Below are positions 10,617-27,671 of a DNA stretch of 27,671 nucleotides, one piece after another; the stretch's first letter is position 1, and every line of letters begins with the position of its first letter. This stretch comes from Leucosporidium creatinivorum (lineage: Eukaryota; Basidiomycota; Microbotryomycetes; Leucosporidiales; Leucosporidiaceae). The notes beneath the pieces are model-generated. The model saw only the letters and a program-made list of their open reading frames with translations. It had not been told where the DNA came from and searched no databases. A program made the position numbers and the translations under genes. The DNA lies in assembly GCA_001600635.1 (NCBI GenBank), contig BCKL01000053.1, forward strand, positions 1 to 27,671, given 5' to 3'.

Positions 10617-12100
10617 GTCGAGCTGTTGGCGGGATGTTGACTGAGGCAGAGGTGCGACTTGAGCAGTTGCGAGAAGCGGACGAGCTCAGGAGGCAAGAGA
10701 AGTGTGGGGAGTGGAGGGCATGCGTCCCCCAAAGTTGAGGTAGAGGCAGAGACAGATCAGAGCACATGATGTGAATCTGGATCAGGCGAGGCTCTCCGCA
10801 ACACCAGATGCCCCTCGCTTGAAGTTGGAGCGAGCAACAGTTCGGCGAAGGGAGGTCGTCAGGTCCCAAGCTCTGTCAAGCCATCTGAGAGGCTATGAGG
10901 CTGCGTTTGGTAGGCCTTGAGTGAGTCGCAGACCCTGTACACTCCTCACATAGTATCCGACTCGTTCGGGCGCCGACATGAGCAGAAAAGAGAGCTCGGC
11001 GCTCACTCGCGAGGTCTCGTCGTCCTCGAATGCACTCCCACGCACTCGCCGTGGCACGTAGAAACGCGAAAGATGATAACGATGCTCCGCTGTCATCATG
11101 CGACGCCTGCCTGCCGCTGAAGTTCACTTAGCGACGGATTCGGCGAGAAGACGAGAGGACGCCGAGCGCAGAGCAGTGGCTGAGCTGTCAGAGCAATGCT
11201 CTCCAGCCTAGAAGTGAGGATGGGAGAGCACTGCTCTTTTACAGCCTGCAGCGCGTTACCCGCGCAGAGCCAGCTCACACGAGTACCGAAGCAGAGGCTG
11301 GCGAGATCGCTCCGCCAAGGTTCAGAAATCGAACGGAGCAGGGCTGACGCTCAAGCTCAGCTAAGGCTCATCAGCAGCAGATTTCGTTGCCTCAAACCCT
11401 GATCTAGAGAGTGAGCAACCCCTGCCCCGGTCCCATGCAGGACCGTTGCCAAGCCGAGCTCGTCAACGGTCAAGGTTGCGAGAGGGAGACCGCGCTGCGC
11501 GCCGTAAGCCAGTCTTCTCTCCCTCTGGATAGGCCAGAATCTCGAATACACGGACTGCTACATGGTGAGAGCCACTGGCGCCACGCAGCAGCAGCAAACT
11601 CTCTGTGAAGGAGCCTCGCGCTTCGAAAGAGTGGATCACCGGGAGCAGGTAGCAGCCCGCTCACACTGTATCGACGTCGCCTTGCGTATGTATATTCAGA
11701 CCTCCTCAGATCTGACTCTACTCCCCAGCTGCCACAGCCTCGAAGCAAGCAGCAGCGCGAGAAGAAGAGAGCCTGGCGGGGTCGATGCCAGCGCGGACGG
11801 CGAGGCTTGAGTCGGGACACCTCGCGGTTCGGCGACAGCGCTCTCCGGTTCACTGTTCCGGGGTGGCCCGTCTTCAAGCATCACTCGGTGCAGCACGAGC
11901 CTAGCCGGCACTGCCTCTGAGCAAAGGAGGAAGCCTGATTGCCAAGCCGAACTTGACGTCTCATCTCGCAAGCCGAATTCAGAAGCCATGCCTACACGAC
12001 CTGCAGCGCTACAGCGGCTATGGGGCACTCGAGCCGGCTCCAGCAGCTCTACTATACCTCGCTCACCCAGAAAGGCGTAGCAGAGCAAAAAAGTACCTAC
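10617..12100. other. Gene-poor intergenic DNA, left of the inverted repeat
   Basis: This is the upstream region of the membrane-protein gene and the left part of a 3.5-kb gene-poor block. Open frames here begin with non-ATG codons, are short and resemble nothing. CGCCGAG/CTCGGCG words recur. The limit with the repeat arm is gradual, so its outer ~100 bp may belong to the arm. No RNA gene was found by eye. Confidence 0.5.
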
Positions 12101-13850
12101 ACAAGCGCCGAGAACAGGGCCGAGCGCTTTGGAGTGGCTGGTCTCGAATTCGTGTGGCTTCTCGACAGCATGGACTCCATTTGATGTGAGATCAAACAAC
12201 TCGGGCAAGCAGGGAGGGCCTCCTCCAGCCTCGAGCCTGGGAACGACCCGGTCAGCGCCGAGCTTGCTCGACCGTTCAGCGCACTTGCGGTCGGCGCTCG
12301 CAATCGACTGAAAGTTTGTAGCGCAGCATGTTACTCAGTCATGATCGCAAGCTAGAGCACCTGCACTGCAAGCGCCCGAGCGAAGCGGAAGGCGTGCGCC
12401 GAGCTGCTCACGCGGTCATCGGGAGACCCTGCGGGACTCACTGATGAGACAGTCCTTCCACGCGAGCTTGTGCAAAGCCTTCCTCTAGCCGGACAACTCC
12501 TCTCCTGCTTAGGAGCAAAGATGAAGAGCGAGCGGATCTCGACCGAGCCCCGGACAAGCTCGGCGCGATGCAGTGAGTTGTTTTGCTACAGCTTGAGCTC
12601 GTTTATCGCTAAGCAGACGCGTCCTGACCGGTGTGGCGAGCTCACATTCGCTGAAGCCGCTCCCGAGCTCCCCACTCGAGCGAAGAGCCCCGGTTGCGAA
12701 TCGCGCCGAGCTCGCTGTGGCTGACCGAGAAACAGCGTGAAGGCTGCGTGCGGGATGATCGAGTTGATCAACTACTCCTTTCGACACCTTCCATCACGCA
12801 AGACCACACATGCAGCGCAAGCGCGGGACTGGGCGAAGGAGCGTGAGACGGGAGCGCCGAGAGGGACGAGTGATGCTTGAACAGCGCCTTCGGGAATTGC
12901 AAGAAGTGTCAGGGAGCGTCAACAAGAGCACCTCCAGTTCCACAACCCCTCCACCTCGCGATGGGAGAGCTGCCGAGCGAGGGCCCTTTCGAGAGCGCCA
13001 AGCTCGCAAGCCGAGACGACCTTCAGATCAGGTGCTGCCATCTTCATCTCGCTCTCTTGAGTAGTTAGGGAGTACCTTCGAGCCTGGCAGGACATCTGGA
13101 CGTAGACAGACGTCCTCACAGGCCTCCCGCTTGCAAGGACATCCCTCGGCCGAAAGTCGAAGCCTCCTCCACATCGCCTAGCTCCCCCTGCACCCTACAC
13201 TACAGCTTCTACAGTGCATCTAAGGTCCAAGTCGATCCCTCAGCCAGCCGCTTGATGAGCTAGCACCGGTATCAGCGAAGGAGGGCCGTCTGAGCACCGA
13301 GTCGACACTCGCGGAGCTCTGATGTCCAGCTTGACCGCATGGCTGAGTACAGCTACAAGCGAACAGCTTTCAGCGAGCAGGGCGGGGATCGAATAGCTTT
13401 GACGCGTCGCCTCTCCGCGAGAGAACGAGCGATAGAGCAGACCGACTGTTCGCCGAGCGCCGATGGAGAGCGTAGGTACCTCGATCTGCTCTTTCAAGGA
13501 CGTTTATATGCTGCTGCTAGCTGACAGCGTCCGATAGCACTTCTAAGGAGACAAAGCCTTCCTCGAGCGCAGTGAGACCCCCCGTACGCGCTGAGCTTGC
13601 GGGAGATCCTCTCGGCGCCGAGACTGCCAGCTCTGAAGCGTTTGTCTCGCTGTGTGTAGCGGACCAACAAGTCCTATCGCATTCACTCAGCCAGCACACC
13701 TGCACTGCAGACGCGCGAGCGAGCGAAAGACGAGCGAGTTGAGCTGCTCGGCGAAGGCGAACGACCAAGCGCTACAGGTCTCGGGGTGGCCGCTCACCAG
13801 CTGCTGCGTGAGTGAAGCGATACAAGACCACTGAGCAGCTGCATGCTCTA
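12100..13850 (+). repeat. Left arm of a diverged ~1.8-kb inverted repeat flanking IMP4
   Basis: Read in reverse complement, this segment aligns in order with 17150-18970. Anchors (left / right, the right on the opposite strand): GAACGACCC at 12241 / 18830s; CACTGCAAGCGC at ~12365 / 18690; GACCGAGCC at 12540 / 18520; AGGCTGCGTGCGG at ~12740 / 18245; ATCGCGAGGTGGAGG at ~12950 / 18020; CAGACGGCCCTCC at ~13280 / 17697; a TATA-like site at 13501-13510 / 17481-17490; TCTCGGCGCCGAG at ~13610 / 17370. By eye identity is about 70-80%, with islands over 90% and many small gaps. No recognisable protein is encoded. The ends are not sharp and no target-site duplication was seen. Confidence 0.8.
13105..13181 (-). 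other. Conserved island in the left arm with an ATG-led Cys-rich short frame
   Basis: On the minus strand an ATG at 13174 opens a frame reading MWRRLRLSAEGCPCKREA, then CEDVC. The right arm has the matching MSRRLPLSAEGCPCKREA frame from 17808. Over this island the two arms differ at only a handful of positions, far fewer than around it. The left frame runs 40 codons. Whether it is translated is unknown. It could equally be a conserved non-coding segment or chance. Confidence 0.3.
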
Positions 13851-14090
13851 TCCCCTCGATGAGGAAATAAAGCGCACAGCAAGAGCGATCTCGAGGCGCT
13901 CCCTGCGAGCGAACAGCGAGCTGTAAGAAGTCAGGACAAGTCGGAGGGGGTCCAGCAGAGCAGTGGGAGCAGCTTCAAGCGAGCAGAAGAGCTGTAGGAC
14001 AGTACAACAGGAAGCAGCCCGAGACGTCGAAAGCCAACCTTCGCCGCTTCAGAAACCGCACTTTCTCCTTCTCACAACAACCTCGTCACC
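13851..14090 (+). promoter_or_regulatory. IMP4 upstream region
   Basis: This is the spacer between the left repeat arm and the IMP4 start. It becomes pyrimidine-rich next to the gene (CTTTCTCCTTCTC at about 14060-14072), followed by CACAACAACCTCGTCACC and the ATG, which has a good CACCATGG-like context. No TATA box was fixed. Confidence 0.45.
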
Positions 14091-16445
14091 ATGGTTTGTC
14101 CTCTGTAGCTCATTATCCCTACTCAGCTAACGAGTGCATCTACAACAGCTCCGCCGACAAACCCGCCTCCGCCGAGAATTCCTGTACCAAAAGTCGTTGG
14201 AGCAAAAAGAGCGGCAGATTTGGGAGAGGAAGCAGAGGGTTAAAGATCTGTTGGCCAAGGGCAAGGAAGTGCCCAGGGGACAGGGAGTAGGAGAGAGGGA
14301 GGGAAGGATGGACGCCGAGGGAGGAGGTGAGTACAGTGCAGGGCTGGTGCTGGAGAGCGGAGAGGAGCTGAGGGGCGGTGGGAGCTGTGGAGAGGGAGAG
14401 CTACAGGGGCAGAAGGGGACAGCTTGCAGAGCTGGAGGAGCTACTCCTGCACCGCTCTACCACGCTACAGCTGCTCTCAACTCGCCTCTACGCCCGGCCC
14501 GAGTGAGGGAGCTAAGCTCTTTCGCTCGGGCAGGCTAAGTCGGTGATAAGATGAGCCGATGGGCTGCAGCGACGTCTTGGTGATCTCATACAGAGCCTAT
14601 CGCATCCCTGCTGCGTTCGCCGAGCTACGCTGGCCTCGTACAGCTCGCAGAGCTCGGCGAGGCAGCGTTTGAGCTGCTGGCTGATGTGCAGGGAGGGTCT
14701 TGGGGGACAGGTTGTACACGAGCTCTCCATCTTCACGCTACGCACGTCTCGCGCTGCTCGCTGAGTGGAGCTCGTCCGGCGCGATGCTTCTGGAAGGAAG
14801 GAAGTTCGGCGCCGACCAGCGATCGCCTTCGAGGGGTCCGTTGAGTCGCAAGAGACTTCAGAAGGGCGCTTGCATGCCGCTCCCTAGCTCTCTCACCTCT
14901 AGCCTTCTTTACGCACCGAGCACTGACCCTTTGCTCCGCCTCCTACTACTCCCTCATCTCTCCCCCATCCCTCTCCACCTCCCCCTACCCTCGCTCTCCC
15001 CTTCACTTCGACTCACACAACAGCCCCCCTCACCCACATCGACGACGAGTACTCAAACGCCGGTATCGAGGACCCGCGAGTGCTCATTACCACCTCGCGA
15101 GACCCGAGTTCCAAGCTCGCTCAGTTCGCCAAGGTGGGTCTTGCGCTTCTCCCACCCTCATCACACCCTCCATCCTCCTTCCACCTCCCCCCATCCTCTC
15201 CCTCACCTCGACCCCGCCGCTCCCGCCCGCCTCTCCCCTCCCAACCGCTCGCTCGGCGCTAATTCCTCCCTCCCCCTCGCAGGAAATGCGCCTCTGCTTC
15301 CCCAACTCGACCCGCATCAACCGCGGAAACTATGTCATGAAAGACCTGGCCGCCGCCTGCCGCACCAACGGCATCACCGACCTCGTCGTCCTGCATGAGC
15401 ATCGTGGAGTCCCTGATGCGCTGATGCTCAGCCATTTTCCTCATGGACCGACCGTGCTATTTACGTTGACGGGGGTGGTGTTGAGGCATAGTTTGGAGGG
15501 AGTGCAGGGCGCGACGGTGTCGGAGCAGTACCCTCAGTGAGCTCGAGCGGGTTCGGCGAGCGAGGAGTTCGGCGCTGAACCATCTCGCTTCTATCAACGT
15601 TCTCACCTCCCGCTTACCTACTCGACTCGACCACCCTCACTCTTTTCAACTCCTCCCACTTCTTTCGCTGCCCAACCACTCTGCAACAGCCTCATCTTCG
15701 AAGGCTTCGGTTCCAAGCTCGGCAAGCGCGTACAGGATGCGCTCAAGTTCTGCTTCCCGGTACCCAAGTGAGCTCTTCCGCTCGGTTGCTTCCTCCTTCT
15801 CCTGTCTCCCTCCTACTCCACCTTCCTGATCCTTCGATTCTCGGCGACCGCCGCTGGACGAATCGAAAGCTGACCAACTCGCGCGTTCGCAGGGAGGACT
15901 CGAAGCGAACAATGACGTTCGTTAACGAGGGCGACTTTATCTCCTTCCGGTGCGTTACTCTCTTCCCGTCTCCCTCTCACCAGCTCGAGCTCAGTGCTGA
16001 CTTTCCCTTTCCCCTCTCCTTCTTCTGTATTCCTCCATCTTCGCGCCTCGCCTCGACTCTCTCCCTCTCCCCTTATACATACACGATAGCCACCACGTCT
16101 TTGTCAAGACCTCTCACAAGGAGGTGCAGCTTGCGGAGGTCGGACCGCGGTTCGAGATGAGGCGTGAGTTTGCAATCTCTCGGCGCGGTTCGTCGCTTTG
16201 CCCGACCGATTGCTGACTCTCTCCCTTTCCCGCTCCTCTCCCTTTCTTCCCCTCGCCTTCTCACCCCTCCTCTTCCCCTCCTTACCTCTCAACTCCCCCA
16301 CCCCCCTCCCCCTCGCCAACCCCCCTCGCTCACACCCTCAACAGCCTACGAAATCAAGCAAGGCACAATCGAGCAGGTCGAGGCGGACACGGAATGGGTC
16401 CTGCGGCCGTACCAGCGTACTGCGAGGAAGAGGAATCAGCTGTAG
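14091..16445 (+). CDS. IMP4: IMP4, U3 small nucleolar ribonucleoprotein (Brix domain)
   Basis: A nucleolar protein that works with IMP3 and MPP10 in the U3 snoRNP/SSU processome for early 18S rRNA processing. Exons: 14091-14093, 14149-14326, 15024-15133, 15283-15536, 15690-15767, 15893-15949, 16090-16163, 16345-16445; 284 aa, close to the ~290 aa of the family. Seen: N-terminal basic helix [20 protein letters not shown]; then the Brix domain with [139 protein letters not shown] and [17 protein letters not shown]. These match IMP4 orthologues nearly word for word. The segment after residue ~45 ([18 protein letters not shown]) is less typical. The first exon consists of the ATG alone, and intron 2 is 697 nt. 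The gene sits between inverted repeat arms. Confidence 0.95.
14327..15023 (+). other. Long (697-nt) intron 2 of IMP4
   Basis: Donor GTGAGT at 14327; acceptor CACAACAG ending at 15023; phase 1 on both sides (G + CC gives Ala before PLTHIDDEY). The first ~550 nt look like the gene-poor intergenic DNA here (CGCCGAG words, GCTACAGCTG-like runs). The last ~100 nt are strongly pyrimidine-rich. Since the spliced protein is already full length, no hidden exon is needed. Confidence 0.75.
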
Positions 16446-17149
16446 ATTTACTCTCGACGCCGAGCGGGGAGGCAGGAGGAGAGAGGAGAGAGGAGGGAGG
16501 ATGGGAGGGAGGGAGACTGTATTGTATTGTTACTTGTTTCGTCTTTTCTACCCTTCCACCGAGCGCTGAGAGAGGAAGGAGTGTCTGTCGACCGAGCGAG
16601 ACGAGAGGCCGAGTTTCGAGTCGACCTCTTTTGCTCTCCCGCTTCGACCTGCTCGTCTTGCTCTGCTCTGCTCCCTGCGTTTAGGGACTGCTAGGTCATT
16701 CGAGATGGGTAGCCGTATGCTGTACGGTGCGCGGAGAGGCGAGAGGGCGCTGTAGCTCACTCAACGAGGGCGGAAGGCCAGGAGGGAGGTTCATCTCGCG
16801 CTCGCGCTCCCAGGTTCGGCGAGCAGCAGGAGCTGCTGGGCGTTGGCTGGGTAGACGGTTCGCACCTGGACTCACTGTGCTTGCTGCCAGCCCCTCAACG
16901 ACCAGCAGGGCTTTCGAGTCAGCCGGTAGCTGTCGTCGCTCGCTCGTTCTCAGGTCTGTGCTGTTCGCTCGCTGGTCAAGGGACTGGTGAACGAGGGTGC
17001 TAAGTCCAACGTGAAGTGGCGGAGGAATACTGCGCTCCGATAGCGGGTTGTGTGCACGCTTGCCGAGCTCAAAGGGCTTCCGGAGTCGGACAAGTCGAGC
17101 CGAGCATGCCCGAGTCGGTCAAATCAGCATGCTGCAGGCCTTTGCTCTG
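16446..17149. other. IMP4 3' region and gene-poor spacer
   Basis: Purine-rich GGAGG runs lie just past the IMP4 stop (16468-16515). After that the sequence is the usual gene-poor type. Open frames start with non-ATG codons and have no recognisable content. The right repeat arm begins gradually around 17130-17200. Confidence 0.5.
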
Positions 17150-17480
17150 CCCTGAGTGGAGAGGTGGAATAGCTACTATCAATATAGGCGATCCTGTGCG
17201 ACGAGCAGGCTGGTCTGCCGCTGAAACTTTCCCCCATCGCCGAGCAGCTCGACTCGCCCTCCTTCCGCTCGCTTGGCCGTTTGCAGTGCAGATTCGCTCG
17301 CCGAGTAGTTGCTGTGAGGCTCGGCGCTCTGCTACACATGGCGACTTGAATGCTACAGGACCTGGAAGTCTCGGCGCCGAGGGGAACTGTGGCAAGCTCA
17401 GCACTTGCGGGGGATCTCTCTACGCTTGAGGAATGGCCTTGATCCTTACAAGTGCTGTTGGATGCTATCATCCAGCAACA

Positions 17481-17490
17481 ATATATAAAC
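17481..17490 (+). promoter_or_regulatory. TATA-like site conserved in both repeat arms
   Basis: ATATATAAAC followed by GTCTTTGACAGAGCAG. The left arm has CATATAAACG (13501-13510, minus strand) followed by TCCTTGAAAGAGCAG. In both arms the site lies ~325-330 bp before the ATG of the conserved island and points away from IMP4. Promoter function is inferred only from this arrangement. Confidence 0.3.
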
Positions 17491-17807
17491 GTCTTTGACA
17501 GAGCAGGTGGAGGTACGCTCTCCACCGGCGCTCGGCGAGCAGTCGAGTCTGCTCTTTCGCTCTTTCTCTCGCAGAGAGGACAAGCGTCAGAGCTATTTGA
17601 TCTCTGCGCTGTTCGCTGAAGGCTGCTCGCTTGTAGTCGTAGTCAGCTGTGCGCTTGAGCTGATCAATTGACTCGGCGACTCTCGACGCGGTGTGCAGAC
17701 GGCCCTCCTTCGCTCATACCGGTGCTAGCTGAGCAAGCGTTCGGCTGCGTGATGACTTTGGCGCGTGGACGCACGACAGAAGCTATAGTGCATGATCAAG
17801 CTAGGCG

Positions 17808-18059
17808 ATGTCGAGGAGGCTTCCACTCTCGGCCGAGGGATGTCCTTGTAAGCGGGAGGCCTGTGAGGACGTCTGTCTGGTCCATATGTCCTACCAGGCT
17901 CTAAGGTATTCCTTCACTACTCAAGAGATCGAGATAGAGAAGGCAGCACTTCATCTCGCCGCCATCTCGGCTTGCGAGTCGGCGCTCTCGCAGGAGAGCT
18001 CGCTCAGCAGCTCTTCCATCGCGAGGTGGAGGGGGTGTGGGGCTTCCGAGGTCTTCTAA
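17808..18059 (+). other. Possible small Cys-rich frame in the right arm (relic or short gene, unproven)
   Basis: An 83-codon ATG-started frame. Its first ~23 codons (MSRRLPLSAEGCPCKREA, CEDVC) are conserved in the left arm with an ATG at the same point. Two of the four visible differences in these codons are silent. Past that point a one-base length difference puts the two arms in different frames, so at most one arm could encode the longer product. I recognise no family. It may be an old broken gene copied in the inverted duplication, a conserved non-coding element, or coincidence. Confidence 0.25.
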
Positions 18060-18334
18060 CGCGTCCGAGCGCTTCATGAAACACCTGAACAGGCTATTCG
18101 AGCTCCGATCGCCCGCGCCCTTCGAAAGCTCGGCTCTGTCGCCTTGCGCTCTTTCGCTCATTCTTGCGCTTGCGCTGCAGGTGGGGGATTGCGTGATGCG
18201 CGTCTGCAGTGGGAGTAGCTGATCGATTCGACCGGGCCGCACGCAGCCTTCGCGCTGTTCTCGGGAACACGGCGAGCTCGGCACCCTTCGCAAGCGGGGC
18301 TCTTGAACTCTTCGCTTGGGCAGGCAGCTTGGGT

Positions 18335-18456
18335 GCGACTTTAGCTGGTGAAGGGAAGCCAGAGCGTTGCTGGGAAAGGTACTGCTAGTAAGAGGCGACT
18401 TTAGCTGGTGAAGGGAAGCCAGAGCGTTGCTGGGAAAGGTACTGCTAGTAAGAGGC
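18335..18456 (+). repeat. Perfect 60-bp tandem duplication
   Basis: Two identical 60-bp units at 18335-18394 and 18395-18454 (the match continues 2 bp further). Each begins GCGACTTTAGCTGGTGAAGG and ends CTGCTAGTAAGAG. No base differs between the copies, so the duplication is recent compared with the surrounding arm. Confidence 0.95.
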
Positions 18457-18970
18457 AAGCTCAGCCTGTGGCAGAACGCCTCATTGCCATTTTCTCACGT
18501 TGATGCGCGGCCACGGCTCGGTCAACACCCTCTCGCTTGTCATTGCTCCCTTAGGTAAGGGGAGGGACTATAAGTATACTAGTGATCTTGCGAAGCCCTG
18601 GGCTCATAGCGCACCAGTTCAGATAGCGGCGGAGGCTGTAAACTTCGCTTGAACCGTGCGAGCAGCTCGGCGCTCCCTCGTTCCGCTTCGCTCGAGCGCT
18701 TGCAGTGCCGGTGCTTGCGGTTGCAGTGAGGAAGAGCACACGTCTGGACCTGACTATAGGTGAGAACTGTGCTAGACGGTCATGAGTGCTGTGACTCTGA
18801 GGATGCGCGGGCTCAGCGCCGAGCGGGTCGTTCTCAGGCTCTCAGTCGGAGGACGCACTCTCCTCTTGCTCGATACGCTCTCATCTCAAAAGTGCTCAGC
18901 TTGTACTCTTGGCCGTGAGCCAGGCCAAGAATGCAGATATAGAGCTCTACGTTGCTCATTCTTGTGCTCG

Positions 18971-20085
18971 GCGCTCGCTCAAGTCGGCCACCGCTTGGCT
19001 CTCCCTTCCGTCGAGCAGACAAGGGGTAGTGGAGCTAGAATCGCCGAGTTGAGGTAGCGAGGCACTACATGTACTCGCCCGACAGGGATGGCACAGCTGA
19101 ACCAGGTTGCAGCTCGGCTCGAGGCTGACAGGTTCTCGGCAATTGCGCCTCCATTGATTGCCCAGAGGCAGTCTCAAGGAGACTGACATTGCGCTGAGCG
19201 ATACTTGGATTCCGTCATTCGCCGATTGGTGTGCCGATGCTTGAACAAGAATTTGCAAGACAGATCCACGGGAGCTCGACTTTGCCAATCCCGTCTCGGT
19301 CGACCGTTCTCTCTGCCCTATGCTGCTAGCTGGAGCTGGTGGCTGGTGAGGGGTAGGATCAGATCCTGTGGGTGCCTCAGACCTCAGGCCAGAGCTCGAC
19401 GCACTGCATCCGTGCTTGGGCTCGAGCCCAAGCGCTCTTCCGTTTCCCAACCTTTGCATTGGCTTCTCGCGCTTCAGGGAGCGTGAGGGTTGAAGCTGTA
19501 TCGAGGCGGAAACGTAGGGAGGCATATTTCTGGCGACTACCTGGGTGGTGAGCTGACGTGTGCCGGCCTGTGAGGAGAACAGCGAGAGCTTCCGAGTCGC
19601 CGAGAGCTTCGCCGAGAATTGGCGCCGAGAAGCAGCGGGAGCTCTGTTGTTGACTGCCACAGGCAGGAGTGCGGTTCAAGTAGCCTCAAGTACTCTATAT
19701 CCAACGCTGAACACTCTCGCGGTGCTGCTCTACCCGTTTAATGAGCTACAACGTACGGCGAGCTGGTGAAAAGCGATCGCCGAGAACAGGCGTCAAGTCG
19801 ACTCGGAGCACTCTAAACATACGCAAGAAGTCTTCTCGAATCAGAAAGCCATCTATCAAGTGCTACAGGCAGCTCTGCAGCCGAGGCCCCTTTTTCCACA
19901 CTCCCGCGTTTCGAGCTTCGACCCCCTCCTTCGCTCCCTCCTCAACTTCACCTCGTCCCTTCGACCGCCCTTCGATTCGCTCAAGAGGAGGACTACAAGC
20001 TTACACATTCGACGCTCCAGCGTATACCTCCTTCGCCTGCCGTCTGTAGTCGAGCAGACAGACGCGCCCAGCTCATCCAACACGC
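18971..20085. other. Gene-poor DNA, then promoter and leader of the RhoGEF gene
   Basis: The left part is ordinary gene-poor sequence with CGCCGAG words (a dense cluster at about 19595-19635). A 234-codon minus-strand open frame (18956-19660) starts with GTG and is Ser/Arg/Ala-rich without recognisable content; I do not call it. From ~19885 to 19985 the plus strand is pyrimidine-rich (CCCTTTTTCCACACTCCC, CCCTCCTTCGCTCCCTCC), typical of a fungal promoter before the ATG at 20086. Confidence 0.5.
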
Positions 20086-27582: not shown

Positions 27583-27671
27583 CCAAACCCAACCCTAGGG
27601 TTAGGGTTGGATTGGAGTAGGGTTGGGTAGGGTTGGGTTAGGGTTAGGGTTGGGTTAGGGTTGGGTTAGGG
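27583..27671 (+). repeat. Telomeric repeat tract (TTAGGG/TTGGG type), chromosome end
   Basis: From 27598 to the last base the plus strand is G-rich and made of TTAGGG and TTGGG units, often alternating (TTAGGGTTGGG, 11 bp). A few degenerate units occur in the inner part (GGATTGGAGTAGGG, GGGTAGGG). The G-strand reads 5'->3' outward, as at a true right end. Just inside, 27583-27597 is the opposite, C-rich orientation (CCAAACCCAACCCTA), forming a 12-bp palindrome AACCCTAGGGTT at 27591-27602. Repeats this irregular suggest a telomerase template read with variable starts or a skipped base (inference). Confidence 0.95.

Follow-up and report, generated by a model that had tools for sequence, protein, structure and literature searches.

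Foldback and other DNA elements carry long terminal inverted repeats, and the repeats of inverted-repeat centromeres typically enclose a core that is free of genes. Inverted-repeat centromeres occur in several yeasts, as set out in the available part of one report (PMC12711049). In Drosophila subobscura, inversion O8 has inverted duplications that derive from one breakpoint and are ascribed, in the available part of PMC5080602, to staggered breaks. The locus described here consists of two non-coding arms in inverted orientation on either side of IMP4, a gene for ribosome assembly. With a probability of roughly 55%, a non-coding block of about 1.6 kb (possibly about 2.1 kb) was duplicated long ago in inverted orientation, is seen at this locus alone, and flanks with its two copies a 3.5-kb IMP4 segment; a staggered-break inversion would be the simplest origin. 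Four other readings are each less likely: a transposon, a segment that flips, a pair of RNA genes and a centromere of the inverted-repeat type. Literature searches found nothing on this locus, nor on IMP4 with an inverted repeat in fungi.

The window, meaning the whole stretch of DNA that was analysed, is one complete contig of 27671 bp; the assembly has 63 contigs, with 27,713,604 bases in all. Telomere repeats occupy 27641-27671, up to the contig's last base (pattern search allowing at most one mismatch; 19 contigs of the whole assembly match this pattern), and the inverted-repeat locus lies 9 kb from this telomere. Exon-sized frames above the Pfam cut-offs identify the complex I 51-kDa subunit, through its SLBB and FMN-binding domains, as well as an F-box-like domain and a Brix domain; LRR, RhoGEF and CCCH zinc-finger matches were below their own cut-offs. 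Reading by eye suggested in addition a candidate RecQ-type helicase at about 2.5-6.7 kb, where two scanned frames gave no Pfam match. An old telomere fusion was considered and rejected, TTAGGG being present just as single hexamers at 13065 and 16681 and in no array.

The Brix domain (Pfam E 5.2e-07) supports the identification of the gene between the arms as IMP4. In a search of solved structures with the exon at 15283-15531, the four top chains were all Imp4 or U3 snoRNP chains (7.7e-28 to 1.6e-21), versus 8.9e-10 for Rpf1 and equal or weaker values for other Brix proteins. This exon has a single match in the genome. The long first intron of the gene showed no likeness to the left arm when both strands were compared, and a genome search found no second copy of it.

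Coordinates of the inverted-repeat locus and its features in the window
Feature	Position	Strand	Basis or remark
Left outer island, probably left over from a longer arm	11709..11754	+	Collinear alignment, score 20
Left arm, non-coding	12187..13757	+	Self-blastn, gapped local alignment; 1571 bp
60-bp element, outer copy, left arm	12350..12416	+	Self-blastn, alignment
Most conserved 100 bp, left arm	13077..13176	+	0.92 without gap columns
TATAAA, outward-facing, conserved in both arms	13503..13508	-	Motif count; function putative
Left arm, inner copy of 60-bp element, ending at inner edge	13689..13757	+	Self-blastn, alignment
Segment between arms, contains IMP4	13758..17233	.	3476 bp
IMP4 gene	14091..16445	+	Start and stop by eye; exon 15283-15531 tested
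Right arm, reverse complement of left arm	17234..18888	-	Self-blastn, gapped local alignment; 1655 bp
Right arm, inner copy of 60-bp element, starting at inner edge	17234..17301	-	Self-blastn, alignment
TATAAA, outward-facing, partner of 13503-13508	17484..17489	+	Motif count; function putative
Most conserved stretch, right arm; partner of 13077-13176	17806..17904	-	Arm alignment
60-bp element, outer copy, right arm	18653..18721	-	Self-blastn, alignment
Outer island, right; partner of 11709-11754	19321..19365	-	Collinear alignment

Self-blastn aligned a core, 12650-13757 against 18345-17234 on the minus strand, over 1137 columns with 75.7% identity (E = 0, 756 bits). Two outer pieces were also recovered, 12356-12416/18715-18653 with 85.7% and 12201-12263/18873-18811 with 76.2% identity. 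The gapped local alignment of 12187-13757/18888-17234 scored 549, compared with 16 for the same-strand comparison and a maximum of 22 in 30 dinucleotide-preserving shuffles. Thus the idea that the arms align no better than shuffled sequence is dismissed. The sequence-only reading, which had seen collinear reverse-complement copies on the two sides of IMP4 and had named the gene, was right on both points. It had put the arms at about 1.8 kb and their inner limits at 13800/17200; the aligned arms measure 1571 bp on the left and 1655 bp on the right, and the limits are corrected to 13757/17234.

Identity varies along the arms. With gap columns excluded it is 309/436 (0.71) in 12187-12649, 263/341 in 12650-13000, 166/192 (about 0.87) in 13001-13200, 238/294 in 13201-13500 and 194/256 in 13501-13757. 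Counted per 100 columns in the same manner, the lowest value (0.65) falls at 12282-12378 and the highest (0.92) at 13077-13176; identity is about 0.74 at the inner arm end and 0.65 to 0.69 across the outer 400 bp. Shuffled sequence aligned likewise gave a mean of 0.619 and a maximum of 0.679 in 60 trials.

The inner arm edges are abrupt. The banded score beyond the edge was 12, where shuffles reached up to 14 and 15, and the global score of the 300 bp inward of it equalled the shuffle mean; by these banded and global alignments no arm homology was found inward of either edge. Inside the segment there is a weak off-diagonal match, 13942-13991/16679-16626, whose score one shuffle in 60 reached. 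On the outer side homology fades from 12187/18888 outward, and no sharp end was found. An island of similarity is placed 433 bp outside both arm ends, its score of 20 comparing with maxima of 19 in 60 unbanded shuffles and 14 in 24 banded shuffles. Since this island is collinear with the arms, the arms probably once reached 11709/19365, which makes a block of about 2.1 kb. Against such a reach, the intervening stretch, 11755-12186, has 248/388 identical positions (0.639), inside the null range given above. Its alignment score beats 300 of 300 shuffles, but the best of 40 control pairs from the same window has a z of 6.67, higher than the 5.7 of this stretch.

Each arm contains two copies of a 60-bp element, the outer one close to the arm's outer end and the inner one bordering its inner edge. 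The element was doubled within the block earlier than the arms were duplicated: nine of its columns pair the outer copy with the outer and the inner with the inner, and 0 columns favour the other two-by-two groupings. Thus the block already had both elements when it was duplicated, and it was copied whole. A pattern for the element, with up to two mismatches, has 17 matches in the genome. The four perfect ones are all in the window; the 13 elsewhere carry one or two mismatches, as against 9 matches for a reversed control pattern, so there is no clear copy of the element outside the window. An LTR-like element bounded by direct 60-bp repeats was rejected, as homology runs on to 12187/18888, past the outer copies, and the searches found no further copies.

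The whole-genome search with the arms that the sequence-only reading had proposed returned window positions only. Queries of 1.85 kb, 3.6 kb and 3.4 kb around the arms, and one of the best 151 bp, found no further arm copy in the 27.7-Mb assembly, in a search that may miss weak or common matches. The arms had also been said to lack any recognisable transposase or viral gene, and Pfam scans agree: in the gene-poor blocks 13 frames were scanned (10 and 3 further) and nothing exceeded the cut-off, two matches below it (E 0.069 and 0.43) both falling on one frame of the 10. These results bear on the proposal that an old DNA element of the foldback type captured IMP4, with the arms as its long terminal inverted repeats. 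Long inverted repeats do surround a gene here, and the arms themselves contain none. However, an element of this class is expected in more than one genome copy and, in autonomous members only, with a transposase; the genome searches found no second copy, the 13 frames gave no transposase match, and no sharp outer end of the arms was found. The tested IMP4 exon is without any other match in the genome, so the loop is no spare copy. A captured-gene element is thus decidedly improbable.

An inverted segmental duplication is the best supported of the readings that had been offered from the sequence, on the strength of collinear arms, a single locus and abrupt inner edges; the element that captured IMP4 and flipping at the present day, offered beside it, are both disfavoured. 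In the duplication reading, the IMP4 segment would have been inverted by a small inversion with staggered breaks. Filling and rejoining of the ends would leave the DNA that lay between the staggered nicks at one of the breakpoints on both flanks of the inverted piece, in opposite orientations, and the two copies would later have diverged through substitutions and small indels. We infer an inversion as the maker because it explains opposite-orientation copies on both sides of the gene with no element at the ends; a plain inverted duplication would look identical in one genome. The same sequence is present in inverted form on both sides of one segment, and the presumed breakpoints carry neither a mobile element nor a repeat family by a genome search that may miss weak copies.

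Uniform neutral decay of the two copies does not fit well, since the mismatches are clustered (permutation p 0.019, 0.010, 0.029 and 0.058 for windows of 20, 30, 50 and 100 columns) and identity ranges from 0.87 in 13001-13200 to 0.71 in 12187-12649. The clustering calls for conversion or constraint besides decay. We infer that likeness in the middle of the arms may have been kept by occasional gene conversion between them, or by selection on elements within. Substitutions between the arms comprise 195 transitions and 175 transversions, and the observed/expected ratio of CpG is 1.02 and 0.95 in the arms and 0.98 in the window. Thus there is no sign of repeat-induced point mutation.

In another reading the arms would still recombine, gene conversion keeping their middle alike and crossing over flipping the IMP4 segment between two orientations. 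An identity peak of 0.92 in mid-arm, with lower values at both ends, is what conversion would produce if it depended on homology to either side. However, the best 1.1 kb of the arms shows 20.5% divergence and 23 indels, and its longest identical run is 29 columns (permutation p 0.23). Such short runs and frequent indels leave little substrate for recombination, and the one assembly shows one orientation. Arms that recombine now, with the flipping that the sequence-only reading had entertained, therefore have a distinctly low probability.

In a further reading the arms would be a functional pair, in which two paralogous, outward-facing, TATA-driven transcription units would make non-coding RNAs or short peptides; the conserved island would lie within the transcript, and the control site would be the inner 60-bp element, which stands some 200 bp upstream of the TATA box. 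Over both strands the whole window has three TATAAA motifs, two of which form the conserved outward-facing pair, although a rough estimate from base frequencies puts at a few per cent the share of such arms that would have a TATAAA in common by chance. The island at 13077-13176, with 0.92 identity, and the clustering of mismatches are in line with constraint, but the folds of the conserved islands are ordinary (z -0.26 to -1.46). At 17805-18056 (+) there is an 84-codon frame whose codon score, 0.149, exceeds the 95% point of shuffle maxima (0.107). Its partner in the left arm keeps the start and the first 24 residues (92%) but then shifts frame, and the 84-codon frame has no Pfam match. Among 53 ungapped arm-to-arm segments the best p for an excess of silent changes was 0.049, uncorrected. 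The two Rfam matches obtained are at chance level, lie outside the arms and fall far below the gathering score, and ARAGORN in its bacterial setting found no tRNA. Taken as a pair of functional units, the arms make an unlikely case.

Coding arms and RNA genes were each considered and rejected. For coding arms, open frames, codon scores and silent-change tests between the arms gave one raised codon score in a short frame and no convincing constraint; for RNA genes in the arms there are no tRNA by ARAGORN, no Rfam match near a gathering score and no unusual island fold. In its fullest form the functional reading would have a mirror pair around IMP4, in which each outward-facing unit has a TATA box and a locus-specific 60-bp control element and the two are kept alike by conversion and selection. 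The result would be a hitherto undescribed pair of genes, for RNA or for short peptides, next to a U3-snoRNP gene close to the end of a chromosome. Drawn from the TATA pair, the conserved island and one codon score in the sequence, it is rather unlikely. Should the arms prove constrained in relatives, they would be two paired regulatory blocks, or non-coding genes, that have not been described before.

A centromere of the inverted-repeat type is highly improbable, for all that kilobase inverted repeats specific to this locus lie around a core of a few kilobases. Komagataella phaffii has inverted-repeat centromeres without homogenisation between chromosomes, according to the available part of PMC12711049. 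Against a centromere, IMP4, with its single genome match, lies in the core, and the arms are 20 to 35% diverged. The sequence-only reading had held a centromere less likely on account of this gene and of the telomere 9 kb away, and ordinary base composition (0.585 to 0.601 in the arms versus 0.582 to 0.608 in other stretches) now adds to these grounds.

Fourteen other stretches served for comparison, 137,302 bp at hand-picked, non-random positions: 12 lie within large contigs and measure 10 kb each, and the other 2 (8.4-8.9 kb) come from small contigs that bear telomere repeats. Centromeres of the inverted-repeat type should number one per chromosome; none of the 14 stretches has an inverted pair at E <= 1e-6, in a sample (137 kb of 27.7 Mb) that is too small a share for counting such structures per chromosome. 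Looser cut-offs gave weak inverted matches, the best with 41.0 bits in stretch L040 and one with 33.7 bits in L039. A direct repeat (294 columns, 81.6% identity) is present in L040 too.

If the locus is the scar of an inversion, it records a small rearrangement at a single-copy housekeeping gene near a telomere. It would then be a clean case for the decay and conversion of inverted non-coding duplicates in a GC-rich fungal genome.

Compared with known systems, the locus shares long inverted arms and a loop with DNA elements of the foldback type and differs from them in that no second copy, transposase match or sharp outer end was found. With the centromeres of Komagataella phaffii, as the available part of PMC12711049 presents them, it shares kilobase inverted repeats that are not found at other places in the genome; unlike them, it has IMP4 in the core, a telomere 9 kb away and diverged arms. 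For inversions O4 and O8 of Drosophila subobscura the uninverted arrangement was sequenced, whereas here there is one genome alone, with a segment of just 3.5 kb, one gene and much-diverged copies. In the available part of PMC5080602, O4 and O8 resemble this locus in having sequence inverted around a segment with no need of a mobile element, and O8 resembles it also in the one-breakpoint form of its duplications.

Within the right arm of the diverged inverted repeat that flanks IMP4, a 60-bp segment has been duplicated in tandem and its two copies are perfect. The duplication is found in the right arm only. Since the left arm has a gap at the opposite position, the tandem duplication is younger than the duplication of the arms themselves.

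Folding of the most conserved island of the arms showed an imperfect palindrome in each copy. In the left one, 5 + 10 positions pair and there is a single mismatch; the fold energies are ordinary. A perfect 20-bp palindrome, which came up where the sequence matched itself on the opposite strand, lies outside the right arm.

IMP4 has, by eye, a short intron after its start codon, and an intron-like gap of about 700 bp, long compared with the other introns in the window, is counted as the second; it is the "long first intron" if the short one is left out. A search of the genome found no other copy of this gap.

A direct repeat, 81.6% identical over 294 columns, is present in L040, a control stretch of the same genome. 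The telomere repeats of the window are 11-bp units in which TTAGGG is mixed with TTGGG, and a pattern search allowing up to one mismatch found this mixed unit on 19 contigs.

Coordinates of the features
Feature	Location	Coordinates
Tandem duplication	right arm	18335-18456
Imperfect palindrome	left island	13082-13123
Imperfect palindrome	right island	about 17859-17899
Perfect palindrome		19414-19433
Intron-like gap	IMP4	14329-15024
Telomere repeats		27596-27671
Direct repeat	L040 (contig C2)	544-835 / 1635-1916
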